Shown here in pieces: positions 1-62,443 of a stretch of DNA of 64,000 bases. The stretch is from positions 18,896,501 through 18,960,500 of the forward strand of contig NC_092660.1 of the NCBI RefSeq assembly GCF_032118995.1, in the 5' to 3' direction. Origin of the DNA: Asterias amurensis. Taxonomy: Eukaryota; Echinodermata; Asteroidea; Forcipulatida; Asteriidae. Position numbers and translations under genes: made by a program. The notes beneath the pieces were generated by a model. That model saw only the letters and a program-made list of their open reading frames with translations, had not been told where the DNA came from and did not search any database. How positions within the stretch are numbered: the first letter of the stretch is position 1; the number at the start of each line of letters is the position of its first letter.

Positions 1-1259
1 TCTGGACGAGCGTAGTCATACTCTGGGCTGCCATTCTCTACTTCAGCTGGTTGGTAGTAGGTGTGTTGTGCGGGATTTGTCTCTTCAGTCGTAGTGGGTT
101 CCATGTAGACGCGATTCTTGTCCTCCGTTGGCTGCAGCTCCATGTAGGGATCGGGTTGGGTGTCTCGGGGTTCTTTCTCAGAGGTTAGTCTTCTTATCAG
201 ACGTTTCTGTCTGATATCACGAAGGATGAGAATGATAATGGAGACCAAGAATATAGCAGCGAGGACTATGAACGCTACAATCCATGGAGTTGAAGATGGG
301 GCTGAAGCAGACGAACTTAGGCTAGACTCGGTTGTTTTCTGCTCTGGTGTTGTTGGTTTTGTCATGGTAGATGTCGCAGAGGACGTTGAAGTAACCTCGT
401 TCTCTGTAGTTGGAGAAGGATTTCCAGTCGATGGTCTAGTTCCTGCTGTAGATGATGTTGACGTGGATGATGTTGTGGGTTCTGTCATGAGTATTGTCAC
501 GGTTTTCCTCACTGTAATTGGTCCGATTTGACATGTACGTTGCATACCAGCAAAATACATTGATGATATGAAGCATTCGAATACAACACCATTATCATCA
601 TCATCCACTGTCAAATCTGATGTTCTTAGGACTGTATCGTTATCATCGTTGATTACTGATATCCAGTTGGTGTATCTAGAAGTCTGTATAGTGGCATTGA
701 TCGTCATTGTGACTGTTCCGTGACTGCTCTCAGATGAACACCTCATATCTAACTCTGTCCCAGCGTCTACTGTAATGGGTCCAGCAGGAGAGCACATAGG
801 GAAGGACGCATTGGGGTAGTATAACACTGAAAGTGTTACACTGGATGTGGCTACGATGGTGTTGCCTACGATCGATAATGGGTCATTGACATTACACACA
901 TATTCATCAGTATCGGCCCTCTGCACATTGGTGATGGTAAAGTCTTGGAGAACTGTTTGAGTATTAACACCTACCGATGTACCGAAGATGATCCGTCCAT
1001 TGTTGTTAAAAACAGTGATTTCACCCCATCTCAAGGTCTTTTTTGGATCTTCAGTTGCCCACTCTACGACATTATCCGACTCGAGGTTTGTAGCGGTACA
1101 CCTCATATCAACCTGCCCGCCCTCCTTACGATCAGCCTCTGGTGTTAAGATCTCCGCATACGCTGTTGGTTGAGCAGTGATAACCATCAGGAGTCCGCCT
1201 GCATCAAGTGAACACCAAACACACACCAACAAAACATACATCGAGATCTTTCCATCCAT
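1..1259 (-). CDS. Class A two-Ig-domain membrane receptor (G1), 3' end cut by window edge
   Basis: My translation from the ATG at 1259 runs open to base 1 (about 419 codons) and the sequence stops in the tail just after the PEYDYARP motif, so only the last two tyrosine motifs and the stop are missing. Order: signal peptide (about residues 1-29), V-like Ig domain with the MRC, EW and DTDEYVC landmarks, second Ig-like domain with the CSPAG start, stalk rich in Ser/Thr, one membrane span and a tail with YMEL and VYMEP. The stalk is longer than in sister genes, with an added block containing TKPTTPEQKT. The start is set by homology with the other copies and by a strong context (A at -3, G at +4). 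Family membership is clear; ligand unknown. Confidence 0.85.
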   Translation of the reverse strand, partial: MDGKISMYVLLVCVWCSLDAGGLLMVITAQPTAYAEILTPEADRKEGGQVDMRCTATNLESDNVVEWATEDPKKTLRWGEITVFNNNGRIIFGTSVGVNTQTVLQDFTITNVQRADTDEYVCNVNDPLSIVGNTIVATSSVTLSVLYYPNASFPMCSPAGPITVDAGTELDMRCSSESSHGTVTMTINATIQTSRYTNWISVINDDNDTVLRTSDLTVDDDDNGVVFECFISSMYFAGMQRTCQIGPITVRKTVTILMTEPTTSSTSTSSTAGTRPSTGNPSPTTENEVTSTSSATSTMTKPTTPEQKTTESSLSSSASAPSSTPWIVAFIVLAAIFLVSIIILILRDIRQKRLIRRLTSEKEPRDTQPDPYMELQPTEDKNRVYMEPTTTEETNPAQHTYYQPAEVENGSPEYDYARP

Positions 1260-1287
1260 CGTATTGAATCTTAGTTTTAAGTTGCTA

Positions 1288-1329
1288 TTAATCATTTCTG
1301 GAGAAGACGGATAAAGGATGGAAATGCAT
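1288..1329 (-). other. Upstream ORF of G1, shortened
   Basis: A 13-codon reading frame, MHFHPLSVFSRND, upstream of the G1 start. It matches the conserved leader peptide frame of the sister genes but ends early because one T is missing after the GAT codon. Confidence 0.4.
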
Positions 1330-2307
1330 GAAGTTGAATGATCCCACGTTCACACACAGCTCAATGTAAGAGGGATTTAATGTACGTTTAACGATGAATG
1401 GCTGACTTCCTTATACTGAGCACGACACGCCAATGAACTTCAACAATAACACAACTCTTGGTTTTCATTTTACGGCAACAAGTTTAACAATAAGGGTCAC
1501 AAGGTCGCAGTTCAACTGATTTTTGATAATACCTAAAAAGAAGAAGAATCAAATCAAATAGTTTGACAAATGTTGCCCTTTAAACTGTCATTTTACAGTC
1601 TTTCAGTCGCTTGGATATATGAGAATTGGTTTGCCAAAGAAGTTATTTCAATTCTTGCTGATCGCTCTCAAAGAATGTGATCCGTATTTGGGCAAAGAAG
1701 ATTGTGATGTCATAGATTTCCCAGGGTAGCACAAAACTGATTTTGGAAATTAACTGATTGTTCAGTTCTGGGTATAGATGTATCTCAACGACACCAACGG
1801 TGCCAGCAGGGGTCTGATGTCCTTTATTGTCTATTTTCAATACAGCATGCACAACTTGATCGAGGGAAACCGTTCATTTGGCCTCAACCAAAAGTTTAAA
1901 AGTCTGTTAAAATCTTTCAGTATTTTGGCAGAATAATTTTCCTAACCCATACAAAGTCCTCGATCTCGTTTTAGTATAACAAAAAATATGAATGGATACA
2001 TTCGTTTTGTAGGAGGAATAATAAGTATACGTGTTGAGGCAATGAGGTCCGTTCTTTCCCGATTGAGATGACGTTTAAAATACACTTGTCATTAATTTAT
2101 TCAAATCCAGCAGGTTCATTTATATAAACACAGTATGATTGCAAACTGATAATCATTTAGGAATGCAAATTTATTCATATCAAGCAGGTTCATACATATT
2201 CATGTTTTCCGATTACATTTATCTGACTCAAAATCTTGGTGCTTTTTTAAATTTATCAATATAAACCACAAGGGAAACTGACTGGGTAAATTTTAAAATG
2301 ATTTTTG

Positions 2308-2416
2308 GGGTTGAACAAAGAATTGACTAGAGTGGGATTCGAACCAACGACCTCTGGCACGTTAATCCGGAGGTCGTTGGTTCGAGTCCCACCCTAGTCA
2401 ATTGTTTGTGCAACCC
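2308..2416. repeat. tRNA-like inverted foldback, copy 1
   Basis: Two near-complementary arms of about 50 bases meet at a short loop around 'ggcacgttaatcc'. Each arm reads outward as a tRNA 3' half: the plus-strand arm has the B-box-like GGTTCGAGTCC preceded by GTTAATCCGGAGGTC, which resembles the anticodon loop and variable region of tRNA-Asn(GTT). No 5' tRNA half or A box is present, so it is not a tRNA gene. Confidence 0.75.
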
Positions 2417-2619
2417 AAAAGAATTATTTTTAATATAAAAATAATGTGTTATTTATTTACAGAAGTTTTAATTCAAAATGAATATTCACAAATCAGTAAT
2501 CATAGCAAGCAGGTTTTTACAGTGTTGATGTAATCTGACTACAAAGAAAAATTCTTTTTTTTTATGTTCTGACTTTGTGTACTTTTATGATCAACCCTAA
2601 AACGTGACGTGAGAATATA

Positions 2620-3497: not shown

Positions 3498-3878
3498 AGG
3501 AACACGTTGCCTTGGATCGGACGAGTTGGTCTATATAAAGCGTTTGTAACCGCTTTTATAAATTGCATATGGTTGGAAAGATGTTTTAAAAGTAGAATAC
3601 AATGATCCACACAAGTTTGCCCCGAAATTGCCTGGTTTTCCTTTTACTGTGCGAACTAACACGGTCAGCCATTTATGGGAGTCAAAAATTTGACTCCCAT
3701 AAATGGCCGACCGTGTTAGTCTACGAGGTTAAAGGAAAACCGTGCAATTTCGAGGCATGTTTGTGTGGATCATTGTATTCTACATTTACAACATCTTTCT
3801 ACCCATGTGCATTTTATAACAAACGGTTACAAACGCTTTTCAAAGACCAACTCGACCGATCCAAGGCAACGTGTTCCT
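3498..3878. mobile_element. Foldback TTAA MITE inserted into the G2 stop codon region
   Basis: An almost perfect palindrome of 381 bp flanked by TTAA at 3494-3497 and 3879-3882. The ends (AGGAACACGTTGCCTTGGAT and its complement) match along at least 30 bases, and the centre is a second strong inverted repeat around 'gggagtcaaaaatttgactccc'. Sister genes have the uninterrupted sequence GTTAATGTTC at this point, which fixes the insertion site exactly. Confidence 0.9.
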
Positions 3879-5101
3879 TTAATGTTCTGATACTGCTTCT
3901 CAGCTGAACTCTGTGGCACTCTGACCGCTTCATAGCTGGTGTTGGTGCTACCCTCTGGACGAGCGTAGTCATACTCTGGGCTACCATTTTCTACTTTAAC
4001 TGGTTGGTAGTAGGTATCTTCTGTGGGATTTGTCTCTTCAGTCGTAGTGGGTTCCATGTAGACGCGATTATTGTCCTCCGTTGGCTGCAGCTCCATGTAG
4101 GGATCAGCTTGGGTGACTCGGGGTTCTTTTTCAGAGATGAGTCTTTTTATCAGACGGTTCTTTCTGACGTCACGAAGGACGAGAATGACGATGATGACGA
4201 AAAATGTAATGGCAAAAATAATAGCAATTAACGCTAGAATCCATGGAGTTGAAGATGGAGTTGGTATAGTGCTGGTAATTCCATTGTTTTGTGACGTCAT
4301 ACTTTCGGATGTTGTTATCTGCTCCACCGTCATGGGTATTGTCATTGTGTTCCTCACTGTTATTGGGCCGATTTGACAAGGACGTTGCATAGTAGTGAAA
4401 TACATTGATGCGATGACGCAATCGAATGCAACACCATTATCAGCATCATCCACTGTCAAATCTAAAGTCCTTACGACTGTATCGTTATCATCGTTGATTA
4501 CTGATGTCCAGTTGGTGTATCTAGAATTCTGTATAGTGGGATTGATCGTCATTGTGACTGTTCCGTGACTGCTCTCAGATGAACATCTCATATCTAACTC
4601 TGTCCCAGCGTCTACTGTAATGGGTCCAGCAGGAGAGCACATAGGGAAGAACGCATTGGGGAAGTATAACACTGAAAGTGTTACACTGGATGTGGCTACG
4701 ATGTTGCCGCCTCCACCCTGTATTGGGTCATAGACATTACACACATATTCATCAGTATCGGCCCTCTGCACATTGGTGATGGTAAAGTCTTGAACAACTG
4801 TTTGAGTATTCGTACCCGATGTACCGAAGATGAATCGTCCGTTTCTATTATGAATAGTGAACTCACCAAATCTCAGGGTCTGTATTGGATCTTCAGTTTC
4901 CCACTCCACAATATGATCCGACTCGAGGTTTGTAGCGGTACACCTCATATCAACCTGCCCGCCCTCCTTACCATCAGCCTCTGGTGTTAAGATCACCGCA
5001 GACACTGTTGGTTGAGCAGTGACAACCATCAGGAATCCGCCTGCATCAAGTGAACACCAAACACACAGCAACAAAACATACATCGAGATTCTTCCACCCA
5101 T
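3827..5101 (-). CDS. Class A two-Ig-domain receptor (G2) with MITE-derived C-terminus
   Basis: 424 aa. Signal peptide 1-29; V-like Ig domain about 30-147 with MRC, VEWETEDP and DTDEYVC; second Ig-like domain about 150-255; a short stalk (VEQITTSESM type, shared only with G13); membrane span starting at PWILALIAII; basic stop-transfer RDVRKNRLIKR; tail with DPYMEL, VYMEP, TYYQPV, YDYARP, TSYEAV and YQNI. Sister proteins end in QNINN or QNINK. Here the MITE at 3498-3878 has replaced the last two codons and the stop, so translation continues for about 17 extra residues (KGTRCLGSVELVFEKRL) from transposon sequence. In place of the usual 'RKEGG' it has 'GKEGG'. Intact otherwise. Confidence 0.9.
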   Translation of the reverse strand: MGGRISMYVLLLCVWCSLDAGGFLMVVTAQPTVSAVILTPEADGKEGGQVDMRCTATNLESDHIVEWETEDPIQTLRFGEFTIHNRNGRFIFGTSGTNTQTVVQDFTITNVQRADTDEYVCNVYDPIQGGGGNIVATSSVTLSVLYFPNAFFPMCSPAGPITVDAGTELDMRCSSESSHGTVTMTINPTIQNSRYTNWTSVINDDNDTVVRTLDLTVDDADNGVAFDCVIASMYFTTMQRPCQIGPITVRNTMTIPMTVEQITTSESMTSQNNGITSTIPTPSSTPWILALIAIIFAITFFVIIVILVLRDVRKNRLIKRLISEKEPRVTQADPYMELQPTEDNNRVYMEPTTTEETNPTEDTYYQPVKVENGSPEYDYARPEGSTNTSYEAVRVPQSSAEKQYQNIKGTRCLGSVELVFEKRL

Positions 5102-7393: not shown

Positions 7394-8698
7394 CTAATTG
7401 TTAATGTTCTGATACTGCTTCTTAGTTGAACTCTTTGGCACTCTTACCGCTTCATAGCTGGTGTTGGTGCTGCCCTCTGGACGAGCGTAGTCATACTCTG
7501 GGCTGCCATTCTCTACTTCAACTGGTTGGTAGTAGGTATCGCGTTTTTGAATTGTCTCTTCAGTCGTAGTGGGTTCCATGTAGACGCGATTCTTGTCCTC
7601 CGTTGCCTGCAGCTCCATGTAGGGATCAGGTTGGGTGACTCGGTTTTTGTTCTCAGATGTGAGTCTTTTTATCCTACGGTTCTTTTTGACGTCACGAATG
7701 ATAAGAATGATGATGATGACAAAGAATGTAACAGCGAGGACTAAGACAACAATGAAAGCTACAATCCATGGAGTTGAAGATGGGGCTGCATCAGACGAGC
7801 TTGGGCTAGACACAGTTGAAGAGGTTGAAGTAACCTCGTTCTCTGTAGTTGGAGTAGGATTTCCAATCGATGGTGTCGTTGATCCTGCTGTAGATGATGT
7901 TGACATGGATGATGTTGTGGGTTCTGTCATGGGTATTGTCACGGTGTTCCTCACTGTAATTGGTCCGATTTGACATGTACCATGCATACCAGCGAAATAC
8001 ATTGATGCGATAACGCAATCGAATGCAACACCATTATCAGCATCATCCACTGTCAAATCTAATGTCCTTAAGACTGTATCGCTATCGTCGTTGATTACCA
8101 ATGCCCAGTTGGTGTATCTAGAAGTCTGTATAGTGGGATTGATCGTCATTGTGACTCTTCCGTGACTGCTCTCAGATGAACATCTCATATCTAACTCTGT
8201 CCAAGCGTCTACTGTAATGGGTCCAGCAGGAGAGCACATAGGGAAGGACGCACTGGGGAAGTATAACACTGAAAGTGTTACACTGGATCTGGCTACGATG
8301 GTGTTGCCTCCGATCGATATTGGATCATTGATATGACACACATATTCATCAGTATCGGCCCTCTGCACATTGGTGATGGTAAAGTCTTGAACAACTGTTT
8401 GAGTAGCTTTATCTACCGATGTATCGAAGATGAACCGTCCATTGTTAATAACAGTGGCTCCACCCCATCTCAGGGTCTCTATAGGGTCCTCAGTCCTCCA
8501 CTCCACAATGTGATCCGACTCGAGGTTTGTAGCGGTACACCTCATATCAACCTGCCCGCCCTCCTTACGATCAGCCTCTGGTGTTAAGATCTCTGCATAC
8601 GCTGTTGGTTGAGCAGTGACAACCATCAGAAATCCGCCTGCATCAAGTGAACACCAAACACACACCAGCAAAACATACATCGAGATCCTTCCATCCAT
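7394..8698 (-). CDS. Class A two-Ig-domain receptor (G3)
   Basis: 434 aa, intact. Signal peptide about 1-29, V-like Ig domain with Cys 54 and the DTDEYVC cysteine, second Ig domain with four cysteines, long Ser/Thr stalk (TSSMSTSSTAG, then TENEVTSTSS), membrane span from PWIVAFIVVL, tail with DPYMEL, VYMEP, TYYQPV, YDYARP, TSYEAV and YQNI, ending QNINN. Loop after the last Ig1 cysteine reads HINDPISIGG, unlike neighbours. The tail carries EETIQKRDTYY, where others have NPAQHTYY. Start chosen by homology and strong context; an upstream ORF ends 19 bases before it. Confidence 0.92.
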   Translation of the reverse strand: MDGRISMYVLLVCVWCSLDAGGFLMVVTAQPTAYAEILTPEADRKEGGQVDMRCTATNLESDHIVEWRTEDPIETLRWGGATVINNGRFIFDTSVDKATQTVVQDFTITNVQRADTDEYVCHINDPISIGGNTIVARSSVTLSVLYFPSASFPMCSPAGPITVDAWTELDMRCSSESSHGRVTMTINPTIQTSRYTNWALVINDDSDTVLRTLDLTVDDADNGVAFDCVIASMYFAGMHGTCQIGPITVRNTVTIPMTEPTTSSMSTSSTAGSTTPSIGNPTPTTENEVTSTSSTVSSPSSSDAAPSSTPWIVAFIVVLVLAVTFFVIIIILIIRDVKKNRRIKRLTSENKNRVTQPDPYMELQATEDKNRVYMEPTTTEETIQKRDTYYQPVEVENGSPEYDYARPEGSTNTSYEAVRVPKSSTKKQYQNINN

Positions 8699-10808: not shown

Positions 10809-10905
10809 TGAGTTTTTTGTATTTTGAGTTTTTTGTATACTTAATTTAGGTACGTTTTTACTTACATAATTAAAGTGTCCATGTATTTCAAAATAATATC
10901 AAAGG

Positions 10906-11070: not shown

Positions 11071-12381
11071 CTAATTTTTAATGTTCTGATACTGCTTCTC
11101 AGTTGAACTCTGTGGCACTCTTACCGCTTCATAGCTGGTGTTGGTGCTGCCCTCTGGACGAGCGTAGTCATACTCTGGGCTGCCATTCTCTACTTCAACT
11201 GGTACTTGGTAGTACGTATGTTGTGCGGGATTTGTCTCTTCAGTCGTAGTGGGTTCCGTGTAAATGCGATTCTTGTCCCCCGTTGGCTGCAGCTCCATGT
11301 AGGGATCAGGTTGGGTAACTCGGGGTTCTTTCCCAGAGGTGAGTCTTTTTATCAGACGTTTCTGTCTGATATCACGAGGGATGAGAATGATGATGATCAC
11401 AATGGATGTAACAGCGACGCCTAAAACAACTATGAATGCTAGAATCCATGGAGTTGATGATGGGGTTTGATCAGACGAGCTTGGGCTAGACTCAGTTGAA
11501 GAGGTTGAAGTAACCTCATTCTCTGTAGTTGGAGTAGGATTTCCAATCGATGGTCTCGTTGATCCTGTTGTAGATGATGTTGACGGTGATGATGTTTTGG
11601 GTTCTGTCATGGGTAATGTCACGGTGTTCCTCACTGTAATTGGTCCGATTTGACATGTGCGTTGCATACCAGTGAAATACATTGATGATATGAAACAGTC
11701 GAATGCAACACCATTATCAGCATCATCCACTGTCAAATCTAATGTCCTTACGACTGTATCGCTATCATCGTTGATTACTGATGTCCAGTTGGTGTATCTA
11801 GAAGTCTGTATAGTGGGATTGATCGTCATTGTGACTGATCCGTGACTGCTCTCAGATGAACATCTCATATCTAAATCTGTCCCATCGTCTACTGTAATGG
11901 GTCCAGCAGGAGAGCACATAGGGAAGGACGCACCGGGGAAGTATAACACTGAAAGTGTTACACTGGATGTGGCTACGATGGTGTTGCCTCCACCCTGTAC
12001 TGGGTCATTGACATTACACACATATTCATCAGTATCGGCCCTCTGCACATTGGTGATGGTAAAGTCTTGGAGAACTGTTTGAGTATTCACACCTACCGAT
12101 GTAACGAAGATGAATCGTCCATTGTTGTTAAAAACAGTGGTTCCACCCCATCTCAGGGTCTGTCTTGGGTCTTCAGTACTCCATACCACGATATGATGCG
12201 ACTCGAGGTTTGTAGCGGTATACCTCATATCAACCTGCCCGCCCTCCTTACGATCGGCCTCTGGTGTTAAGATCTCCGCAGACACTGTTGGTTGGGCAGT
12301 GACAACCATCAGGAATCCGCCTGCATCAAGTGAACACCAAACACATACCAGCAAAACATACATCGAGATCCTTCCATCCAT
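11071..12381 (-). CDS. Class A two-Ig-domain receptor (G4), Ig1 cysteine replaced
   Basis: 436 aa, open throughout. Same order of parts as G3. In the first Ig domain the B-strand cysteine is Tyr (VDMRYTATNLE, residue 54; TGT to TAT), so the usual Ig disulfide cannot form; the F-strand cysteine (DEYVC) remains. The second domain keeps its cysteines. The part from CQIGPITV to the tail, including LPMTEPKTSSPS, the QTPSSTPWILAFIVVLGVAV membrane span and the tail, is nearly identical to G8 (three differences after RDI, among them PRDI where G8 has LRDI), which suggests gene conversion. Head-to-head with G5, 2.0 kb apart. Confidence 0.88.
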   Translation of the reverse strand: MDGRISMYVLLVCVWCSLDAGGFLMVVTAQPTVSAEILTPEADRKEGGQVDMRYTATNLESHHIVVWSTEDPRQTLRWGGTTVFNNNGRFIFVTSVGVNTQTVLQDFTITNVQRADTDEYVCNVNDPVQGGGNTIVATSSVTLSVLYFPGASFPMCSPAGPITVDDGTDLDMRCSSESSHGSVTMTINPTIQTSRYTNWTSVINDDSDTVVRTLDLTVDDADNGVAFDCFISSMYFTGMQRTCQIGPITVRNTVTLPMTEPKTSSPSTSSTTGSTRPSIGNPTPTTENEVTSTSSTESSPSSSDQTPSSTPWILAFIVVLGVAVTSIVIIIILIPRDIRQKRLIKRLTSGKEPRVTQPDPYMELQPTGDKNRIYTEPTTTEETNPAQHTYYQVPVEVENGSPEYDYARPEGSTNTSYEAVRVPQSSTEKQYQNIKN

Positions 12382-12400
12382 CGTATTGAATCTGAGTTTA

Positions 12401-12454
12401 TTAAGTTGCTATTAAATCATTCCTTGAGAAGACGGGTAAAGCATGGAAATGCAT
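12401..12454 (-). other. Conserved upstream ORF of G4
   Basis: 17 codons, MHFHALPVFSRNDLIAT, stop 19 bases before the receptor ATG. Confidence 0.45.
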
Positions 12455-13180
12455 CAAGTAGAATGATCCCACGTTCACACACAGCTCAATGTAATAGGGA
12501 TTTAATGTACGTTTAACGATACATGATTGTACTTCCTTATCTGAACAACACATGACAATGAACTTCAACAATAACACAATTCTGGGTTTTCATTGTTACG
12601 GTAACAAGTTTAACAATAAGAGTCACAATGCTGCAGTTCAACTGGAACAAGAACATGCCCCAAACCAACCGAATAAAATGACGTATTATTCAACATAATT
12701 TGTTTCCATTCTACTCTTCATATTATTAGTAGAACGGTTTAAAACAGAATAATCAAGTCAAATATAGTTTGACAATTGTTGCCACTTTGAACCATTATTT
12801 AACAGGATTTCAGTCGCTTGTGCGATTATTATTTTTGTCAAGAACTTATTTAAATTTTCACTGAGCGCTCTCAAAGAGTGTGATCCATGTTTGGACGCGG
12901 ATTGTGTAATACTTTGATTTGTTTAAACTTTGTCTAGTGCAGACTTTTATTGTTCTTTTCCAGCGCCTTTAAGGCGGATTCTTTCTGCAATTGTTTTTGC
13001 GCTTTATAAATTTCTCTTTATTATCGTGACGTCATAGATTTCTCAGGGTAGCACAAAACTATACTTGGAAATTGCCTGATAGATCAGTTCAGGGTATAGA
13101 TGTAATCCATCAATAAATCACAAATACGCCACCAATGGTGCCAATAGGGTCCTAAATCGTGATTTATATTTGCCTTCTGT
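12455..13180. promoter_or_regulatory. Shared region between head-to-head genes G4 and G5
   Basis: No gene. A TGACGTCA at 13027-13034 lies 0.65 kb from the G4 start and 1.37 kb from the G5 start, in the conserved block ATAGATTTCTCAGGGTAGCAC. The paralogous spacer at 36056-38103 has the one-base variant GGACGTCA. Whether it serves both genes is inference. Confidence 0.35.
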
Positions 13181-13566
13181 TTAAAGACACTGGGCACTTT
13201 TGGTAAAATGTCAAAGACCAGTCTTCTCACGTGTATCTCAACATGCACAAATTAACAAACCTGCGAAAATTCGAACTCAATTGGTTGTCGAAGTTGCGAG
13301 ATAATAATACAAGAAAAAACACCCTTGTCACACGAAGTTGTGTGCTTTCAGATGCTTGATTTCGGTGACTCAAAATCTAATTCTGAGGTCTCGAAATCAA
13401 ATTCAAACATTTAGTGGAAAATTACTTCTTTCTCGAAAGGTAAGTTACTTAGAGCCGTTTCTCGCAATGTTGTATACTATCAACAGCTCTCCAATGCTTG
13501 TTACCAAGTAAGTTTTTATGCTAACATTTATTTTGAGTAATTGCCAATAGTGCCCAGTGCTTTTAA
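13181..13566. mobile_element. 390-bp TTAA repeat, copy 2
   Basis: Starts AAGACACTGGGCACTTTTGG, ends TAGTGCCCAGTGCTT, TTAA on both sides. Present at the same site in the G8-G9 spacer (36858), so it predates that duplication. Confidence 0.75.
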
Positions 13567-13659
13567 TACAGAAACATATTTTAGTAAACATTCTTGAGAG
13601 CAGTACTGAGTGTTATTAATTTAGCTGTCATTCAAAACGAATACAATGATCACACTAGA

Positions 13660-13810
13660 CATACCGATTATGTAACCACTTAATACTCAGTACTTTCCCG
13701 GGTTCTGTGAACAAAATCACAGGCATAGTACTCAGGTGGGATTCGAACCCACGACCTTTGCAATTCTAGAGCAGTGTCATACCAACTAGACCACCGAGAT
13801 TGCCCGGTAG
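13660..13810 (-). mobile_element. tRNA-headed SINE with Deu-like core, copy 1
   Basis: On the minus strand: A box TGGTCTAGTTGG at 13793-13782, B box GGTTCGAATCC at 13749-13739, then a core reading GAACCCGGGAAAGTACTGAG, which I recognise from memory as the Deu domain shared by many deuterostome SINEs. The exact ends, especially the 3' end, are not certain. It lies about 0.6 kb upstream of class B gene G5. Confidence 0.7.
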
Positions 13811-14325
13811 CTAGAGGACATGCAGTTCGAATCATGTGTTAAGCAGCGGGCACTCCATCGAATTAAGAGATGTTAAATTTGCATCGGGCATAAAGAAAGT
13901 TAATTTTGGTTTCACCCATACACACCGAGAAAATATTATTATCCTTTTCGAATAAATTCCTCTGTCGTATAATCTGTATTTGTGTCTCTTCAGTTGTTTT
14001 TTCCGCCATTAGACTTATTTAACTTTAAGAAGTTGCAATCAGTCGGTTTGTGGTCGTGCTAAGGTTCTACAGTATTTCAATGCCATGATATTGGCGAGTT
14101 GCAGATCGTTGTTCATAAATAACTGCAGTTCTAGAATCAGTTGAACTGTGACATTATAATTCTCTTTGTCAAACATGTCTGGATAAATTGAAATTCATGA
14201 GTTGTGTTATTGTTGAAGTTCATTGGCGCGTAGTGCTTAGTAAGAGAAAGTACAACCAAATCGACTTATGTACATTAAATCACTATTACATTGAGCTGTG
14301 TGTGAACGTGGGATCATTCTACTTC
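13811..14325. promoter_or_regulatory. Class B 5' flank (G5)
   Basis: No gene. Conserved with the DNA before G9 and G11, including GAAGTTGCAATCAGTCGGTT and, nearer the gene, GCTGTGTGTGAACGTGGGAT, which class A flanks share. Likely holds the promoter; no clear TATA box seen. Confidence 0.35.
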
Positions 14326-14379
14326 ATGCATTTCCATCCTTTACCCGTCTTCTCCAGGAATGATTTAATAGCAACTTAA
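14326..14379 (+). other. Conserved upstream ORF of G5
   Basis: 17 codons, MHFHPLPVFSRNDLIAT, stop 19 bases before the receptor ATG at 14399. Confidence 0.45.
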
Positions 14380-14398
14380 TAAACTCAGATTCAATACG

Positions 14399-16243
14399 AT
14401 GGAGGGAAGGATCTCGATGTATATTTTGCTGGTGTGTGTTTGGTGTTCACTTGATGCAGGCGGATTCCTGATGGTTGTCACTGCTGAACCAACAGCGTAT
14501 GCAGAGATCTTAACACCAGAGACTGATCGTAAGGAGGGCGGGCAGGTTGATATGAGGTGTACCGCTACAAACCTCCGGTCGGATCATATTGTTCAGTGGG
14601 AAACTCAAGATCCAACACAGAACTTGAGATGGGGTGAATTCACTGTTTTTAAAAACAATGGGCGATTCATGTTCGATACATCGGGGGTGAATACTACAAC
14701 AGTTGTTCAAGACTTTACCATCACCAATGTGCAGAGAGCCGATACTGATGAATATGTGTGTAATGTCAATGAACCAATACAGGGTGGAGGCAACAACATC
14801 GTAGCCACATCCAGTGTAACATTTTCAGTGTTATACTTCCCCAATGCGTCCTTCCCTATGTGCTCTCCTGCTGGACCCATTACAGTAGACGCTGGGACAG
14901 AGTTAGATATGAGGTGTTCATCTGAGAGCCGTCACGGAACAGTCACAATGACGATCAATCCCACTATACAGACTTCTAGATACACCAACTGGATATCAGT
15001 AATCAACGACGATAGCGATACAGTCTTAAGGACATTAGATTTGACAGTGGATGATGCTGATAATGGTGTTGCATTCGAATGCCTCATATCATCAATGTAT
15101 TTCGCTGGTATGAATGGTACATGTCAAATCGGACCAATAACAGTGAGGAACACTGTGACAATAAAAATGACAGAACCAACAACAACGTCCCAGACTTCGT
15201 CCAGTCCTGCCGTCATTGCCGGACCAGTCGTAGGGGGAGTCGCTGCATTTCTTCTCCTCGTAATCCTGATCCTTGTTTGCTGTAAACTACGCTCCGGCAA
15301 CTCGTATCCCAAATCGGAACACTTCAATGCAGACATCAACCCAACAAATACTGACTTGACACTAGATAGACTTGAACAGTCTCAGATCAGTTTCAACGAG
15401 TATGGAGATCTTGACTCAATACAGCATGGATTACAGGATAATATCATATATGTCCCATCCCCGAGCCCAATATCCGGACCAGCTGCGTCTTATGCTGGCA
15501 CTTTGCCGGTACAAACAGCTGAGACGATTGATCCAAGTCTAATTTATGCAAAACCAATCCGTACCAAAACTCAAAAGACTGAACGTGAACTGAAGAAGCA
15601 ACAGTCAGACCCCAACGATAACCCTTCAACTGATCAGAGTTACAACAATCCTGCATTTGATTCTTATGTCTCTGGTGGAACAACAGCGCCCTCTTGTGAC
15701 GACTCACCCACTCCCACACCGGCGGCATCGGTTAGACCAACTCGACCTATTAAACCCACACCTTATAAACCCAACCCGTCACAGCGTAACACATTGGGTA
15801 GGCCTAACAATGACAATCCTGTAATTGAGTCGAGTGTCTCTGATGAAACAACAACGCCCTCTGGAGTCGACTTATCCACATCCACCAAACCGATTGCATT
15901 AGTCAGACCAACTCGACCTAGTAAGCCCAGACCCTATAAGCCCAAGCAAGCAGAGCGTATGAGTGACGCCCCGAGTACCCACAACGACCGGATGCCACCC
16001 TCTCCCCCACCCCTAACAAGCGTCAATGACGGTACCCCTAACCTGGAAAACGACGACGATTCTCCTTATGCCCAAGACTCCGTACCCATGAGACAGCAGA
16101 GTAGTCATGGCAACCCAGCATCTGAGGATCACATTGTCTATGCTGATTTGGATTTGCAATCAGACGAGATTCAAGATGGTGGACACCACCCTCAACCAGC
16201 ATCTGATGAAGCAGTGCTGTACTCGAGCGTAATGATGAACTAA
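14399..16243 (+). CDS. Class B two-Ig-domain receptor with tandem ITIM-like tail (G5)
   Basis: 614 aa, intact. Signal peptide about 1-29; V-like Ig domain with Cys 54, Trp 67 and Cys 121 (DTDEYVC); second Ig-like domain with Cys 155, 173, 228 and 242; very short stalk; membrane span about 271-295 (AVIAGPVVGG to ILVCC). The roughly 318-residue tail has two copies of an RPTRPxKPxPYKP block (446-463 and 503-520), a PPSPPPL SH3-type motif (533-539), and near the end IVYADL (Tyr 581) and VLYSSV (Tyr 608), both fitting the I/V/LxYxxL/V pattern of ITIMs. Such pairs usually bind SHP phosphatases in vertebrates; that role here is inference. This is the only class B copy in the window without a stop inside. 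An ATTAAA at 16374 may direct polyadenylation. Confidence 0.92.
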   Translation: MEGRISMYILLVCVWCSLDAGGFLMVVTAEPTAYAEILTPETDRKEGGQVDMRCTATNLRSDHIVQWETQDPTQNLRWGEFTVFKNNGRFMFDTSGVNTTTVVQDFTITNVQRADTDEYVCNVNEPIQGGGNNIVATSSVTFSVLYFPNASFPMCSPAGPITVDAGTELDMRCSSESRHGTVTMTINPTIQTSRYTNWISVINDDSDTVLRTLDLTVDDADNGVAFECLISSMYFAGMNGTCQIGPITVRNTVTIKMTEPTTTSQTSSSPAVIAGPVVGGVAAFLLLVILILVCCKLRSGNSYPKSEHFNADINPTNTDLTLDRLEQSQISFNEYGDLDSIQHGLQDNIIYVPSPSPISGPAASYAGTLPVQTAETIDPSLIYAKPIRTKTQKTERELKKQQSDPNDNPSTDQSYNNPAFDSYVSGGTTAPSCDDSPTPTPAASVRPTRPIKPTPYKPNPSQRNTLGRPNNDNPVIESSVSDETTTPSGVDLSTSTKPIALVRPTRPSKPRPYKPKQAERMSDAPSTHNDRMPPSPPPLTSVNDGTPNLENDDDSPYAQDSVPMRQQSSHGNPASEDHIVYADLDLQSDEIQDGGHHPQPASDEAVLYSSVMMN

Positions 16244-37248: not shown

Positions 37249-37324
37249 TACAGAAACATATTTTAGTAAACATTCTTCAGAGCAGCACTGAGTGTTATTA
37301 ATTTAACTGTCATTCAAAACGAAT

Positions 37325-38030: not shown

Positions 38031-38084
38031 ATGCATTTCCATCCTTCATCCGTCTTCTCCATGAATGATTTAATAGCAACTTAA
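38031..38084 (+). other. Conserved upstream ORF of G9
   Basis: 17 codons, MHFHPSSVFSMNDLIAT, stop 19 bases before the receptor ATG. Confidence 0.45.
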
Positions 38085-38103
38085 TAAACTCAGATTCAAT
38101 ACG

Positions 38104-47988: not shown

Positions 47989-48420
47989 AGTTGAAAACCG
48001 ATTCAACACACTTTGATTCCCATTCATCAAAACCTTTTCGGTCAAAAAACATCAACACTTTTGGTCAAAAAGTAAAATAAATGCACAAATTATAATTGTT
48101 TAATGATTTCTTTCAACACAACACCCCTCTAGCTATGAAATAGTAAGGCCCTCCGCCGCCCTCGGGTAAACAACTCCTTATAAGGGAATGCTGTGCGCGT
48201 CGCGCGTTTCGTGTGATGTGGCACAACTGTCCCGGTCGTTGCTCTCGACCAATAGGAATGAAGAAACTGTCTTATAAGAACAGGTGCAAGCTCACGTGTC
48301 ACGCCCATGTTTCAACACTTTTTACTGGTCATAAACAAAGGTTTATACACACCCACGTGACGCGCTCTCCACTAATAGGAATAGCGAAACTGTCTGAGGT
48401 ATTTATGAATGTACGTTTAA
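47989..48420. other. Unassigned DNA right of the TIR element
   Basis: No gene seen. CG-richer than surroundings around 48150-48250, with two copies of an ACCAATAGGAATGA / CTAATAGGAATAG motif. Confidence 0.3.
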
Positions 48421-49724
48421 CGATAAATGGTTGTACTTCCTTAATATTCTGAGCACCACACGCAAATGAACTTCAACAATAAAACAATTCTGGGTTTTCA
48501 TTTTTACGGTAACCAGTTTAACAATAAAGGTCGCAATGCCGCAGTTCAACTGATTCAAGAACATGCCCCAAACCAACAAAATAAATGACGTATATTATTC
48601 AACATAATATTGTTTCCATTCTCTTCGTATTAGTAAGATGGTTTAAACCAGAAAAATCAAGTCAAATATGTGTTTGACAATACTTGTCATTTTATACCGT
48701 TATGTAACAGGCTTTTAGTCGCTTGTGCTATTTTTGTGGCAGGAACTTATTAAAATTCTCACTGGGTGCTCTCAAAGAGTGTGATACGAGGATTGTGACG
48801 TCATAGATTGCCCAGGGTAGCACAAAACTAGTTTGGAAAATGCCTGATAGATCATTTCAGGGTATAGATGTTGATGTATCCCATCAATAAATCACAAACA
48901 CCCCAGCCACCAACGGTGCCAACAGGGTCACAAATCGTGATTAATATTTGCCTTCTTTTTAAAGACACTATGGACGCTTTTGGTAATATTGTCAAAAACC
49001 AGTCTTCACTCACTTGGTGTATCTCAACATGACAAAAAAACCTTTGATTTTGGTACTCAAAATCTAAATATGAGGTCTCGAAATCAAATTCAAATATTTT
49101 ACTGGAATATTAGTTCTTTCTCGAAAACTACGTTTACTTCAGATGGATCCGTTTCTCACAATGTTTTATACTATCAACAGCTCTCCATTGATTGTTACCA
49201 AATATGTTTTTATGCTAACAATGATTTTGAGTAATTATCAATAGTGTCCGGTGCCTTTAATACAAACAAAATATTTTAGTAAACATTCTTCAGAGCAGTA
49301 TGAGTGTTATTAATTTAACTGTCATTCAAAACGAACACAATGATCACATACACTAGGCAGGGATATTGGATAGAGGGCGCACTCTGCCGCTGTGTCAACG
49401 TTACGATAAATTGGGGAGGGGAATTTTGCATCAGAAGCAAACCACGACAATGCCACAATCTCATGATTCGGTCGAATTGACTCGATGGCGAATCAATTAT
49501 CTAAATGACATTATTGGTTGTACATAGTGTAATTAAAGACATAAACAATACCTTGTTTGCTTGAGGGCCTACTGTTGGAAAACGTTCACGTTGCACACTT
49601 CCATTAACTGAAATGAGGGGGAAAGGTAACAGTTTTTCTTTCTGCTGGCGAACTACATAGTTCTAATCTGCGTGTGTACAAGTTTCTTTGCTGATTGAAG
49701 TAAATACCATTCGTTTTGGTATAA
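48421..49724. other. Spacer upstream of G11
   Basis: A diverged family upstream block with TGACGTCA at 48796-48803, then a 390-bp TTAA repeat (48959-49261, shortened in the middle). 49360-49720 is not paralogous to the other class B flanks and holds nothing I recognise. Confidence 0.5.
48959..49261. mobile_element. 390-bp TTAA repeat, copy 7, internally shortened
   Basis: Starts AAGACACTATGGACGCTTTT; lacks the GTCGTCGAAGTTGCGAG middle part. Confidence 0.65.
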
Positions 49725-50491: not shown

Positions 50492-52444
50492 ATGGAGGGA
50501 AGGATCTCGATGTATGTTTTGCTGATGTGTGTTTGGTGTTCACTTGATGCAGGCGGATTCCTGATGGTTGTCACTGCTCAACCAACAGTGTATGCGGAGA
50601 TCTTAACACCAGAGGCTGATCGTAAGGAGGGCGGGCAGGTTGATATGATGTGTACCGCTACAAACCTCGAGTCGGATCAGATTGTTCAGTGGGCAACTGT
50701 GGACCCAGACATGACTCTGAGATGGGGTGGAACCACCGTTAATAATAACAAAGGACGCTTCATCTTCGGTACATCGGGGATGAATACTCAAACAGTTGTT
50801 CAAGACTTTACCATCACCAATGTGCAGAGGGCCGATACTGATAAATATGTTTGTAATGTCAATGACCCAATACAGGGTGGAGGCAACGCCATCGTAGCCA
50901 CATCCAGTGTAACACTTTCAGTGTTATACTTCCCCAGTGCGTCCTTCCCTATGTGCTCTCCTGCTGGACCCATAACAGTAGACGCTGGGACAGAGTTAGA
51001 TATGAGGTGTTCATCTGAGAGCAGTCACGGAACAGTCACAATGACGATCAATCCCACTATACAGACTTCTAGATACACCAACTAGCAATCAGTAATCAAC
51101 GATGATAGCGACACAGTCGTAAGGACATTATATTTGACAGTGGATGATGCTGATAATGGTGTTGCATTCGACTGCTTCATATCATCAATGTATTTCACTG
51201 GTATGCAACGTACATGTCAAATCGGACCAATTACAGTAAACACCGTGACAATACCCACGACAGAACCCGCAACGTCATCCACGTCAACATCAACTACATC
51301 AGGATCAACGATACCATTGACTGGAAAACCTACTCCAACCACAGAGAACGAGGTTGCTTCAACCCCCTCCTCTGCATCTACTCAATCTACGTCCACGACT
51401 TCGTTCAGTCCTGCCGCCATTGCCGGAGCAGTCGTAGGGGGAGTCGCTGCATTTCTTCTCCTCGTAATCCTGATCCTTATTTGCTGCAAACGACGCTCCG
51501 GCAACTCGGATCCCAAATCGGAACATTTCAATGCAGACATCAACCCAACAAATACTGACTTGACACTAGATAGACTTGAGCAGTCTCAGATCAGTTTCAA
51601 CGAGTATGGAGATCTTGACTCAATACAACATGGATTACAGGATAATACCATATATGTCCCATCCCCGAGCCCAATATCCGGACCAGCTGCGTCTTATGCT
51701 GGCACTTTGCCGGTACAAACAGCTGAGACGATTGATACAAGTCTAATTTATGCAAAACCAATCCGTACCAAAACTCAAAAGACTGAACGTGAATTGAAGA
51801 AGCAACAGTCAGACCCCAACGATAACCCTACAACTGATCAGAGTTACAACAATCCTGCATTTGATTCTAATGTCTCTGGTGGAACAACAGCGCCCTATTG
51901 GGACGACTCACCCACTCCCACACCGGCGGCATCTGTTAGACCAACTCGACCTATTAAACCCACACCCTATAAACCCAACCCGTCACAGCGTAACACATTG
52001 GATAGGCCTAACAATGACAATCCTGTAATTGAGTCAAGTGTCTCTGATGGAACAACAACGCTCTCTGGAGTCGACTTATCCACATCCACCAAACCGATTG
52101 CATTAGTCAGACCAACTCGACCTAGTAAGCCCAGACCCTATAAGCCCAAGCCAGCAGAGCGTATGAGTGACGCCCCGAGTACCCACAACGACCGGATGCC
52201 ACCCTCTCCCCCACCCCTAACAAGCGTCAATGACGGTGCCCCTAGTCTGGAAAACACCGACGATTCTCCTTATGCCCAAGACTCCGTACCCATGAGACAG
52301 CAGAGTAGTCATGGCAACCCAGCATCTGAGGACCACATTGTCTATGCTGATTTGGATTTGCAATCAGACGAGATTCAAGATGGCGGACACCACCCTCAAC
52401 CAGCATCTGAAGCAGTGCTGTACTCGAGTGTAATGATGAACTAA
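50492..52444 (+). pseudogene. Class B two-Ig-domain receptor (G11) with one premature stop
   Basis: 651 codons in one frame with a single TAG at 51083-51085 in the second Ig domain, replacing the TGG of SRYTNW. The DNA before and after is open and well conserved: signal peptide, Ig1 (MMCTATNLES, DTDKYVC), Ig2, a long stalk, membrane span (AAIAGAVVGG to ILICCK) and the full tail with LIYAKPI, both RPTRP blocks, PPSPPPL, IVYADL and VLYSSV. The codon after the stop (CAA for ATA) also differs. As in G9 the lesion is one base, G to A here. A truncated product would be secreted with Ig1 and half of Ig2 (197 aa). Confidence 0.82.
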
Positions 52445-57646: not shown

Positions 57647-58969
57647 TCATGAATGTCTAATATTGTTAATGTTGTGATACTGCTTCTCAGCTGAACTCTG
57701 TGGCACTCTGACCGCTTCATAGCTGGTGTTGGTGCTGCCCTCTGGACGAGCGTAGTCATACTCTGGGCTGCCATTCTCTACTTCAACTGGTTGGTAGTAG
57801 GTATGTTGTGCGGGAATTGTCTCTTCAGTCGTAGTGGGTTCCATGTAGACGCGATTCTTGTCCTCCGTTGGCTGCAGCTCCATGTAGGGATCAGCTTGGG
57901 TGACTCGGGGTTCTTTCTCAGAGGTGAGTCTTTTTATCAAACGGTTCTGTCTGATAATACGAAGGATGAGAATGATAATGATCACAAAGAATGTAACAGC
58001 GAGGACTAAGACAACAATGAAAGCTACAATCCATGGAGTTGAAGATGGAGCTGCACCAGACGAGCTTGGGCTAGACACAGTTGAGGAGGTTAAAGTAACC
58101 TCGTTCTCTGTGGTTAGAGTAGGATTTCCAGTCGATGGTCTCGTTGATTCTGCTGTAGATGATGTTGACGTGGATGATGTTGTGGGTTCTGTCGTGGGTA
58201 TTGTCACGGTGTTCCTCACTGTAATTGGTCCGATTTGACATGTACGTGTACGACCAGCGAAATACATTGATGATATGAAGCATTCGAATTCAACACCGTT
58301 ATCAACAACATCCACTGTCAAATCTAATGTCCTAACGACTGTATCGCTGTCATCGTTGATTACTGATATCCAGTTGCTGTATCTAGAAGTCTGTATAGTG
58401 GGATTGATCGTCATTGTGACTGTTCCGTGACTGCTCTCAGATGAACACCTCATATCTAACTTTGTCCCAGCGTCTACTGTAATGGGTCCAGCAGGAGAGC
58501 ACATAGGGAAGGACGCACTGGGGAAGTATAACACTGAAAGTGTAAGACTGGATGTGGCTACGATGTCGTAGCCTCCACCCTGCATTGGGTCATTGACATT
58601 ACACACATATTCATCAGTATCGGCCCTCTGCACATTGGTGATGGTAAAGTCTTGAACAACTGTTTGAGTATTCACACATACCGTTGTATCGAAGATGAAT
58701 CGTCCATTTCTATTATTAACGGTGGTACCACCCCATCTCAATGTCAGTATTGGGTCCTCAGTCCTCCATTCCACAATATGATCCGACTGGAGGTAATTTG
58801 TAGCAGTACACCTCATATCAACCTGCCCGCCCTCTTTACGATCAGCCTCTGGTGTCAAGATCTCCGCATACACTGTAGGTTGAGCAGTGACAACCATCAG
58901 GAATCCGCCTGCATCAAGTAAACACCAAACACACACCAGCAAAACATACATCGAGATCCTTCCATCCAT
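57647..58969 (-). CDS. Class A two-Ig-domain receptor (G12)
   Basis: 440 aa, intact. One residue longer before the Ig1 tryptophan (TNYLQSDHIVEW), with an extra cysteine in TTVCVNTQTV. Second Ig domain VEFECFISSMYFAGRTRTC, Asp-Ala of the usual DDADNG replaced by DVVDNG. Membrane span from PWIVAFIVVL, RIIRQNRLIKR, tail with DPYMEL, VYMEP, TYYQPV, YDYARP, TSYEAV. The C-terminus is YHNINNIRHS instead of YQNINN because two extra bases before the old stop extend the frame by four residues. Start ATG is followed by the family sequence DGRISMYV. Confidence 0.9.
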   Translation of the reverse strand: MDGRISMYVLLVCVWCLLDAGGFLMVVTAQPTVYAEILTPEADRKEGGQVDMRCTATNYLQSDHIVEWRTEDPILTLRWGGTTVNNRNGRFIFDTTVCVNTQTVVQDFTITNVQRADTDEYVCNVNDPMQGGGYDIVATSSLTLSVLYFPSASFPMCSPAGPITVDAGTKLDMRCSSESSHGTVTMTINPTIQTSRYSNWISVINDDSDTVVRTLDLTVDVVDNGVEFECFISSMYFAGRTRTCQIGPITVRNTVTIPTTEPTTSSTSTSSTAESTRPSTGNPTLTTENEVTLTSSTVSSPSSSGAAPSSTPWIVAFIVVLVLAVTFFVIIIILILRIIRQNRLIKRLTSEKEPRVTQADPYMELQPTEDKNRVYMEPTTTEETIPAQHTYYQPVEVENGSPEYDYARPEGSTNTSYEAVRVPQSSAEKQYHNINNIRHS

Positions 58970-58988
58970 CTTATTGAATCTGAGTTTA

Positions 58989-60176: not shown

Positions 60177-60379
60177 AAAAAAAATATTTTTATTATAAAA
60201 ATAATGTGTTATTTATTTACAGAAGTTTTAATTCAAAATGAATATTCACAAATCAGTAATCATAGCAAGCAGGTTTTTACAGTGTTGATGTAATCTGACT
60301 ACAAAGAAAAATTCTTTTTTTTTATGTTCTGACTTTGTGTACTTTTATGATCAACCCTAAAACGTGACGTGAGAATATA

Positions 60380-60506
60380 TTAAAGGGGCTGTGTCGTCTT
60401 GCTCATAAAAGGCGTGTGGCTGTACATGGAACTCACACACGGTTACTGCACGTGCACACTTCCTCCGTATCATATCTATTTGGGCATAAAGACACAGCTC
60501 CTTTAA
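60380..60506. mobile_element. 125-bp TTAA MITE, copy 9
   Basis: TTAA-flanked ends as in the other units. Confidence 0.75.
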
Positions 60507-61014
60507 CCTTAACTTGCACCAATCACATTGATTCAATGTTTAGCGTTATTGAAAAACATACAATAACATGAACATAAGTTTGACAAATATAACTTTCATG
60601 GACAATACTTTTTTAATAATCATAAATGCATTTGCAAATATTTTACAACGAGTGTACACGCCTTTGAATCGTGTGGAATAGAAAAAAAATTAATGAGTTT
60701 GTTTTGTATATTTAATTTGGATACATTTAATTACATAGTCGAGGTGTACATGTATTTCAAAATAATATCAAAGTCAATAACTATCGAATAGATCAATGAT
60801 AGTTCATTATTGTTGTCAGTAATTTATTCATATATATGAGGTTCATTTATGAAATCCATAGAGTACAATAGAAATTGCCCTCTCTTCCAAAAATGGACGT
60901 TTTTATTGTAGCTTCTAGGAGGTGTTGTGTACAAAGTACTCTGTAATTATCTGAACCTTTTGAGTGAGTGTCGTCTTGAATATTGTACCACTATGGTTTT
61001 TATGTACACTGCAA

Positions 61015-61225
61015 CAACTGGGGTGTCAAATTGACACCAAGTGTTTAATCACATAACGATACCAAATAGAGAATCAAAGTAATCACAATAGGTTAACACC
61101 AATGTAAATGTTTTCACAAAAATAAGTGTTTGTAAACACCACATTGTGTAAAATATTGATTTCTTTTTTCATCTTAACGTGACAACACCCATGGTGTAAA
61201 TTTTAACACCCAGTTTTGCAATGTA
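61015..61225. mobile_element. Gene-adjacent MITE beside the G13 stop
   Basis: Full-length form, ends about 18 bases before the stop codon. Confidence 0.65.
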
Positions 61226-61242
61226 TATGGTACTCGTGATGT

Positions 61243-62443
61243 CTAATTGTTAATGTTCTGATACTGCTTCTCAGTTGAACTCTTTGGCACTCTGACCGCT
61301 TCATAGCTGGTGTTGGTGCTGCCCTCTGGACGAGCGTAGTCATACTCTGGGCTGCCATTCTCTACTTCAACTGGTTGGTAGTAGGTATCTTCTGTGGGAT
61401 TTGTCTCTTCAGTCGTAGTGGGTTCCATGTAGACGCGATTATTGTCCTCCGTTGGCTGCAGCTCCATGTAGGGATCAGCTTGGGTGACTCGAGGTTCTTT
61501 TTCAGAGATGAGTCTTTTTATCAGACGGTTCTTTCTGACGTCACGAAGGACGAGAATGACGATGATGACGAAAAATGTAATAGCAAAAATAATGGCTATT
61601 AACGCTAGAATCCATGGAGTTGAAGATAGAGTTGGTATAGTGCTGGTAATTCCATTGTTTTGTGACGTCATACTTTCGGATGTTGTTATCTGCTCCACCG
61701 TCGATGGGCCGATGTGACAAGGACGTTGCATAATAGTAAAATACATTGATGCGATGACACATTCGAATGCAACACCATTGTCAGCATCATCCACTGTCAA
61801 ATCTAATGTCCTTAAGACTGTATCGCTATCATCGTTGATTACTGATATCCAGTTGGTGTATCTAGAAGTCTGTATAGTGGGATTGATCGTCATTGTGACT
61901 GTTCCGTGACTACTCTCAGATGAACACCTCACATTTAACTCTGTCCCAGCGTCTACTTAATGGGTCCAGCAGGAGAGCAAATAGGGAAGGACGCATTGGG
62001 GAAGTATAACGCTGAAAGTGTTACACTGGATGTGGCTACGATGGTGTGGCCTCCGGTCGGTATTGGGTCATAGACAATACACACATATTCATCAGTATCG
62101 GCCCTCTGCACATTGGTGATGGTAAAGTCCTGAACAACTGTTTGAGTATTCACACCTACTGATGTATCGAAGATGAAACGTCCATTGTTGTTATTAACAG
62201 TGACTCCACCATATCTCAGGGTCCTTTCTGGGTTTTCAGTGCCCCAAACAACGATGTAATCCGACTCGAGGTTTGTAGCGGTACACCTCATATCAACCTG
62301 CCCGCCCTCCTTACGATCAGCCTCTGGTGTTAAGATCTCCGCATACACTGTTGGTTGAGCATTGACAACCATCAGGAATCCGCCGCATCAAGTGAACACC
62401 AAACACACACCAGCAAAACATACATCGAGATCCTTCCATCCAT
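61243..62443 (-). pseudogene. Class A two-Ig-domain receptor (G13), two frameshifts
   Basis: Starts at the family ATG at 62443, but a T is missing in the signal peptide region (GGAATCCGCCGCATC near 62390, others CCGCCTGCATC), and a G is missing between the Ig domains (GTCTACTTAATGGG near 61957, others TACTGTAATGG). Between and after these the frames are open: Ig1 from MVVNAQPT through DTDEYVC (62372-61953), then Ig2 to the end of the tail (61932-61243). Ig2 ends CHIGPSTVEQITT, missing about nine residues present in G2, with which it shares the stalk and the PWILALIAII span. Likely a true pseudogene. Confidence 0.85.

Follow-up and report, generated by a model that had tools for sequence, protein, structure and literature searches.

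An array of 13 related receptor genes runs through a 64,000-nucleotide stretch of the Asterias amurensis genome (contig NC_092660.1, positions 18,896,501 to 18,960,500; this whole stretch is called the window, and positions are counted from its first nucleotide). Ten of the genes carry one kind of cytoplasmic tail (type A) and three, g5, g9 and g11, carry an unrelated one (type B). The copies differ mainly at positions that correspond to antibody complementarity-determining regions (CDRs), and the ectodomain of a copy does not reveal which tail it bears. We lean, with modest confidence, towards reading the array as a germline repertoire of variable receptors with a likely recognition role, in which tail B gives an inhibitory output and tail A a different, probably activating or switch-type one. 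That role is most likely immune or self/non-self recognition.

The genes were located by tblastn searches of the window with the proteins of g7 (type A) and g5 (type B), which place all 13, numbered in Table 1, between positions 1 and 62,443. Beyond these, a more permissive search of the window returned only fragments with expect (E) values of at least 1.2. A preliminary description, made from the letters alone, had listed thirteen related frames divided 10:3 by tail; the tblastn results bear this out, with corrections on how many copies are intact. Eight copies are complete with an open frame (g2, g3, g4, g5, g6, g7, g10 and g12), and in each of them a single open reading frame (ORF) holds the signal peptide, two Ig-like domains (D1 and D2), stalk, transmembrane segment and tail. 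Because the whole protein lies in one ORF, the term "intronless" used in that description is valid for the coding part; an untranslated region may hold an intron. Gene g1 is truncated by the window edge before its TSYEAV site, and the array extends past the left edge of the window.

Each gene would encode a type I membrane receptor composed of a V-set domain resembling VH, a further Ig-like domain, a stalk rich in Ser/Thr, a single transmembrane helix and one of the two tails. D1 scores above the Pfam cut-off as ig in g5, g7 and g10 and as V-set in g7. The structure predicted for D1 from 11 of the 13 copies (predicted local distance difference test, pLDDT, 76.6; predicted template modelling score, pTM, 0.72) matches antibody VH domains, and D1 as modelled is a V-set domain resembling antibody VH; within the model, residues 41-70, which make up most of the first variable patch described below, reach a pLDDT of just 54-59. 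D2 has no Pfam match above the cut-off and is probably an Ig domain, judging by a two-domain model built from 9 of the 13 copies. That model, of low confidence (pLDDT 60.1), shows two Ig-like domains. Its Foldseek matches include diabodies, KIR2DL, SYG-1 (D1-D2) and PECAM-1 and also proteins that are not Ig receptors, with template modelling scores near 0.3, and it is therefore used here solely to say that tandem Ig domains are likely. Structure prediction of the ectodomain, a check proposed in the preliminary description, has thus yielded a VH-like first domain and a low-confidence pair. An ectodomain profile searched against the PDB matched CEA best (E = 2.6e-5, parts of D1 and D2 only), followed by mixed proteins that included an unrelated dehydrogenase entry and many antibodies. 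Pfam found no sushi domain in the four receptor proteins scanned, and of 108 stretches in a viral contig collection that matched a pattern none was confirmed as a relative. A match of stalk and transmembrane segment to the NCBIfam rifin model (E = 0.0043, two proteins scanned) lay far below the cut-off of that model and was judged compositional. The transmembrane segment is without a charged residue in the aligned A copies except g6, the only copy among those aligned to have a lysine near the start of the helix, as in adaptor-coupled receptors.

Variation among the copies is unevenly distributed. The ectodomains of the eight other copies compared are 85-94% identical to that of g7, for which the earlier wording "near-identical" is too strong, and the differences are concentrated in two patches, one reaching from BC to DE of the V-set domain (patch 1) and one in the FG region (patch 2). 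Across the 13 copies nucleotide diversity is mostly 0.01-0.07 in the ectodomain, about 0.2-0.28 at amino acids 59-84 and 0.18-0.19 in the FG region, and it climbs again from amino acid 223 (0.11-0.28) towards the stalk. Amino acid diversity, for which, as for the ectodomain substitution rates, 11 of the 13 copies were used (g8 and g13 were left out), is 0.073 in A-B, 0.276 in BC, 0.279 in C, 0.303 in CC'-C', 0.300 in C'', 0.169 in D, 0.404 in DE, 0.041 in E-EF, 0.045 in F, 0.362 in FG and 0.099 in G; in D2 it is 0.084, with a peak of 0.263 at amino acids 224-240. Taken together, the two patches have a value of 0.303 and the remaining positions one of 0.097; 254 circular shifts produced no value as high, a result that is descriptive because the patches were drawn after the data had been seen. 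Under the antibody numbering that we assume for placing them, both patches, and with them the clusters of differences, fall at the CDR positions of D1. In patch 2 the ratio of nonsynonymous to synonymous substitution rates (dN/dS) is 2.88, and the interval for the difference between the nonsynonymous and synonymous proportions (pN-pS), 0.008 to 0.241, comes from 13 codons and non-independent pairs.

In most of the duplicated pairs compared, patch 1 has diverged more than the flank. The block duplicates g4 and g8 are identical at 0.968 of positions in the 5' flank, 0.983 in the 3' part and 0.936-0.951 in the frame segments, and at 0.760 in patch 1 and 0.769 in patch 2; for patch 1 against the flank, p is about 2e-14 on rounded counts. 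The frameshift of g8 relaxes constraint, yet relaxation alone should not carry divergence beyond that of a noncoding flank. No donor for the g8 patch was found within the window (best identity 0.783). Of the 11 pairs compared, 8 (g4/g8, g5/g9, g5/g11, g9/g11, g6/g12, g7/g13, g2/g6 and g4/g3) are less similar in patch 1 than in the flank, the difference being slight in g5/g9 and g7/g13. Tentatively, and as a proposal that we consider somewhat unlikely, the CDR regions may have been exchanged or rapidly replaced in segments once a gene had duplicated, while the frame and flanks stayed nearly unchanged, one pool of V domains being set on inhibitory and on activating or switch tails in single-exon genes outside the vertebrates. 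If true, this segment-wise renewal would parallel CDR diversification, but without rearrangement and with a coupling to opposing outputs.

All three B tails, about 260-320 amino acids long, carry IVYADL and VLYSSV, a pair of immunoreceptor tyrosine-based inhibitory motifs (ITIMs) that lie 26-27 residues apart at the C-terminal end. Shuffling the g5 tail produced two strict ITIMs in 0.8% of cases. PxxPx[RK] sites occur in the tails, two of them in the B tails, and g5 and g11 also have NPAF (NPxF). Tail B is under purifying selection, with a dN/dS of 0.39 and a pN-pS interval of -0.071 to -0.015; so low a ratio in spite of two stop-bearing genes suggests stops that arose recently or have not become fixed.

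Tail A is shorter, about 96 amino acids, and has up to eight tyrosines. DxYMEL and three YxxP sites are present in all ten A tails. Nine A tails are seen to their end, and eight of these have TSYEAV, a site of the type of the immunoreceptor tyrosine-based switch motif (ITSM), the exception being g8, whose ISYEAV fits the ITIM motif; the other eight complete A tails have no ITIM match. YQNI is likewise found in eight of the nine, with YHNI in g12. Four of the nine carry one ITSM-type site or none. In shuffles of the g3 tail, which with that of g5 represents the two kinds, two ITSM-type sites arose in 0.2%, three YxxP in 1.1% and DxYxxL in 0.7%, and YxN occurred at chance level. The tail start was not located in g2, g5 and g13; these proteins were scanned whole and matches outside the tail discarded. 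The preliminary description had assigned YMEL, TSYEAV and YQNI to every A tail and IVYADL with VLYSSV to every B tail; the B pair and YMEL hold throughout, TSYEAV fails in g8 and YQNI in g12.

Ectodomain sequence does not predict tail type. Mean identity over nucleotides 1-171 is 0.961 for B/B, 0.960 for A/B and 0.960 for A/A pairs; the corresponding values are 0.954, 0.954 and 0.953 in D2 and 0.814, 0.781 and 0.799 in patch 1. Among 286 relabellings of the copies, the tail types are separated as well as under the real labels by 81 for the ectodomain, 70 for the patches and 119 for the frame. Closely similar ectodomains are therefore joined to different tails, as in paired receptors, and an inhibitory member with an ITIM is present as judged by motif. 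The equal identities fit conversion across the types and a tail swap just before the duplication burst equally well.

Under the explanation that we prefer, ligand would be contacted by the CDR-like loops together with the C-C'-C''-FG surface, which varies from copy to copy. Tail B would recruit an SHP-type tandem-SH2 phosphatase through its ITIM pair and give an inhibitory output, and tail A, with DxYMEL, three YxxP, TSYEAV and YQNI, may act as a scaffold with a different, probably activating or switch-type output. YxxP sites are bound by Crk-type SH2 domains. ITIMs and ITSMs attract phosphatases or SAP-type adaptors and YxN attracts Grb2 (PMC4810170; here and below, papers are drawn on in excerpt). 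About 265 bp upstream of the start codon are similar in A and B genes, with the best match close to the start, so both receptor types may be made in the same cells.

A number of observations weigh against this explanation. None of the A tails seen contains a canonical immunoreceptor tyrosine-based activation motif (ITAM), and the label "activating" is therefore one that we infer; no member was recognised as activating by an ITAM or by a charged transmembrane residue for an adaptor. The dN/dS of tail A is 0.72, indistinguishable from neutral (eight copies, g8 and g13 being left out; of g2 only the final portion was included, which leaves seven copies for the stalk and transmembrane values), and its tyrosine columns are conserved in 7 of 8 cases against 49 of 86 for the others, which is not significant (p = 0.09). 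Two matches to a looser ITIM motif turned up in 6.2% of the g5-tail shuffles, again not significant. No A/B pair in the window has matching variable patches (best patch 1 identity 0.884, mean 0.781). At p<0.01 without correction, a test for shared tracts singled out five pairs among 78, four of them A/A, one B/B and none A/B; proven conversion between A and B is not claimed. In 3 of the 11 pairs patch 1 is not less alike than the flank: g3/g7, g6/g7 (patch 0.984, flank 0.812) and g3/g10 (only 11 flank bases compared). The dN/dS of patch 1 is 0.49, with pN-pS below zero and a dS of 0.375 against 0.05-0.21 in the other segments; with so high a dS the patch looks replaced or anciently diverse, not classically selected, and we do not claim positive selection on it. 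Four of the 13 genes are broken (g8, g9, g11 and g13), including two of the three B genes, g9 and g11, each with one in-frame stop in the ectodomain, and a disulfide cysteine is missing in two further copies, the first of D1 in g4 and one of D2 in g6. The preliminary description had proposed a candidate paired-receptor system. What stands is a shared ectodomain joined to two tails that are unrelated and both contain tyrosines, the diversity falling on the part by which V-set receptors bind ligand; the case for pairing in the strict sense is weakened, since no A gene in the window closely shares a B patch and two of three B genes have stops.

The broken copies and missing cysteines, the retroelements in and beside the array, and the low dN/dS and high dS of patch 1 would also suit a decaying or neutral array, produced by recent block duplication, with little present function and with patches that are old diversity carried along. 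We regard this as improbable: the B tail is constrained, the FG patch has a dN/dS of 2.88, eight complete frames are open, and neutral drift would not push the patches past the noncoding flanks as in g4/g8. It is also unlikely, to a lesser degree, that both tails are inhibitory or regulatory, with the ITSM of A and the ITIM of B tuning strength or partners and not opposing each other. The lack of an ITAM in tail A and the ITIM-like ISYEAV of g8 speak for such a scheme, as does the recruitment by ITSMs of phosphatases as well as activating adaptors (PMC4810170), but eight of the nine complete A tails are without an ITIM and all have YxxP and YxN, unlike the C-terminal pair of tail B.

A different kind of function would follow if the genes were a KirrelL-like family for cell adhesion or cell fusion, whose tails organise the cytoskeleton or endocytosis and whose patches set adhesive specificity. 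KirrelL is an Ig/transmembrane protein needed for cell fusion, and its gene is intronless in all echinoderms examined (PMC8903837). The single exon of kirrelL, an Ig gene of echinoderms, leaves this alternative some probability, and SYG-1 D1-D2 among the Foldseek matches of the low-confidence model and the YxxP, PxxPx[RK] and NPxF sites (the last in g5 and g11) point the same way. We nonetheless think it rather unlikely, given two ITIMs retained in every B copy, a single kind of ectodomain joined to two unrelated tails, and CDR-like patches that diverged after the g4/g8 duplication far more than the flanks. KirrelL itself, compared here by description only, resembles the eight complete copies in being an intronless Ig/transmembrane gene and differs in being required for fusion of skeletogenic cells; the excerpt of that paper mentions no ITIM tail (PMC8903837).

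Paired Ig receptors are best known from vertebrates, and Botryllus and Hydractinia supply invertebrate cases that are tied to allorecognition. As a recognition repertoire, the array would function most like the CEACAM and Siglec paired receptors and the Botryllus FcoR family. In CEACAMs a V-set N domain is common to members with ITIM or ITSM tails and members with ITAM-like tails, likeness is kept by conversion and diversification is fast (PMC2832619, PMC5112662); CEACAM genes, however, are built from several exons and their partners are of ITAM or ITAM-like type, whereas the array has one coding exon and no ITAM, and the partial match to CEA is a weak family-level resemblance that does not support membership. 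Siglec-11 and Siglec-16 are inhibitory and activating receptors whose ectodomains are kept alike by gene conversion (PMC5701461), but they are sialic-acid lectins of primates, and in the array no tract of conversion between A and B was found. Botryllus FcoR and the Hydractinia candidate allorecognition genes are, like the array, multigene Ig receptors of invertebrates with a V-type domain and ITIM or other tyrosine tails; FcoR combines a V-Ig, a sushi and two C2-Ig domains with exons that undergo alternative splicing, unlike the two Ig-like domains and one coding exon found here (PMC12065747). Membership in CEACAM, Siglec or FcoR cannot be assigned, because neither the FcoR domain order nor an ITAM- or adaptor-type partner was found. 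The amphioxus receptor BbLcLRR has ITIM-like tyrosines that recruit SH2 phosphatases, through which it inhibits human T cells, and thus the ITIM pathway is not confined to vertebrates; its ectodomain consists of leucine-rich repeats, and the excerpt reports no variable array (PMC8211107).

Searches of open-access PubMed Central turned up no description of such a family, in line with the preliminary description, which did not recognise it as a described one. The label IgTM together with "sea urchin" was found in one open-access paper only, for a skeletogenic Lytechinus protein. Surveys of sea urchin immune genes may label Ig/transmembrane genes IgTM, and if that label covers an array of this kind the novelty is lower. 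If the recognition repertoire is real, so compact an array of genes with one coding exon and with diversity at the antibody CDR positions would suggest that no gene rearrangement is required for a paired design, or for diversification focused on the V-set binding face, to arise. Since splicing is not needed and both intact and naturally broken copies exist, the role of each tail is directly testable.

Table 1. Receptor genes, tail motifs, variable patches and intergenic features of the array, in window positions
Feature	Position	Strand	Remarks
g1	3..1259	-	type A; window edge cuts tail before its end
g2	3827..5101	-	type A; open frame; longer C-terminus
g3	7394..8698	-	type A; open frame
g4	11071..12381	-	type A; open frame; Tyr in place of one D1 cysteine
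g5	14399..16243	+	type B; sole B gene with open frame
g6	22180..23484	-	type A; open frame; Phe in place of one D2 cysteine
g7	25756..27060	-	type A; open frame
g8	34744..36055	-	type A; one frameshift
g9	38104..39879	+	type B; one in-frame stop in ectodomain; shorter tail
g10	44423..45730	+	type A; open frame; 5' flank differs from other copies beyond about 40 bp
g11	50492..52444	+	type B; one in-frame stop in ectodomain
g12	57647..58969	-	type A; open frame
g13	61243..62443	-	type A; two frameshifts
Patch 1 in g7 (amino acids 58-100, BC to DE of V-set domain)	26761..26889	-	diversity, dN/dS, D1 model
Patch 2 in g7 (amino acids 122-134, FG region)	26659..26697	-	diversity, dN/dS, D1 model
DPYMEL site of g3 tail	7610..7627	-	motif scan, shuffles
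TSYEAV, ITSM-type site of g3 tail	7445..7462	-	motif scan, shuffles
YQNI site of g3 tail (YxN)	7403..7414	-	motif scan
IVYADL, first ITIM of g5	16133..16150	+	motif scan, shuffles
VLYSSV, second ITIM of g5	16214..16231	+	motif scan, shuffles
Interval between head-to-head g4 (A) and g5 (B)	12382..14398	.	2017 bp
Interval between head-to-head g8 (A) and g9 (B)	36056..38103	.	2048 bp; block duplicate of g4/g5 interval
A-type 5' flank upstream of g11	48408..48785	.	84% to 12504-12884

Self-comparison of the window revealed several block duplications. The block 9248-15190, with g4 and g5, matches 32919-38895, with g8 and g9, at 93%; 4329-9247 matches 22712-27631 at 92%, and 21966-26151 matches 57462-61635 at 91%. 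From the tail of g5 onward the DNA matches that from the tail of g11 onward in five pieces at 94-96% and in two more distal ones at 76-78%. Neither tblastn nor the permissive search of the window found an A coding sequence adjoining the A-type flank upstream of g11. The head-to-head A/B units and the orphan A flank look like copies of one ancestral arrangement, and they are therefore counted as one event. Neither chance likeness nor merged haplotypes can account for the array as a whole, given copies on both strands and segment-wise differences; single blocks may come from a merged haplotype. The 5' flank of g10 (44280-44423) carries TATAAATA some 100 bp upstream of the start, and because this flank is unlike the others the regulation of g10 may differ.

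By its content of Ig receptor genes and retroelements the window is eukaryotic DNA, and mobile elements lie in and beside the array. A 5.3 kb retroelement at 27631-32919, presumably DIRS-like, has inverted terminal repeats and a reverse transcriptase and sits inside a duplicated unit whose uninterrupted counterpart is at 5669/5670. A reverse transcriptase fragment at 18658-19803, which we take to be of the non-LTR (non-long terminal repeat) type, ends in a (TTA)26 run and interrupts DNA that runs on unbroken near 54638-54644. A further reverse transcriptase fragment lies at the right window edge, 63375-63914 (RVT_1, E = 2.9e-20). It was the one clear match in a Pfam scan of ten ORFs, nine of the 25 longest stop-free ORFs of at least 75 amino acids outside known features and one retroelement ORF; three others gave weak matches below the cut-off and six gave nothing. 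A tRNA-Ser (AGA) gene on the minus strand lies between g4 and g5 (13728-13800), with a duplicate between g8 and g9 (37411-37482); Rfam calls both copies and ARAGORN only the first. Downstream of every B gene lies a 12-bp minisatellite, at 21602-21744, 41178-41270 and 56621-56868, the sequences of the three being related.

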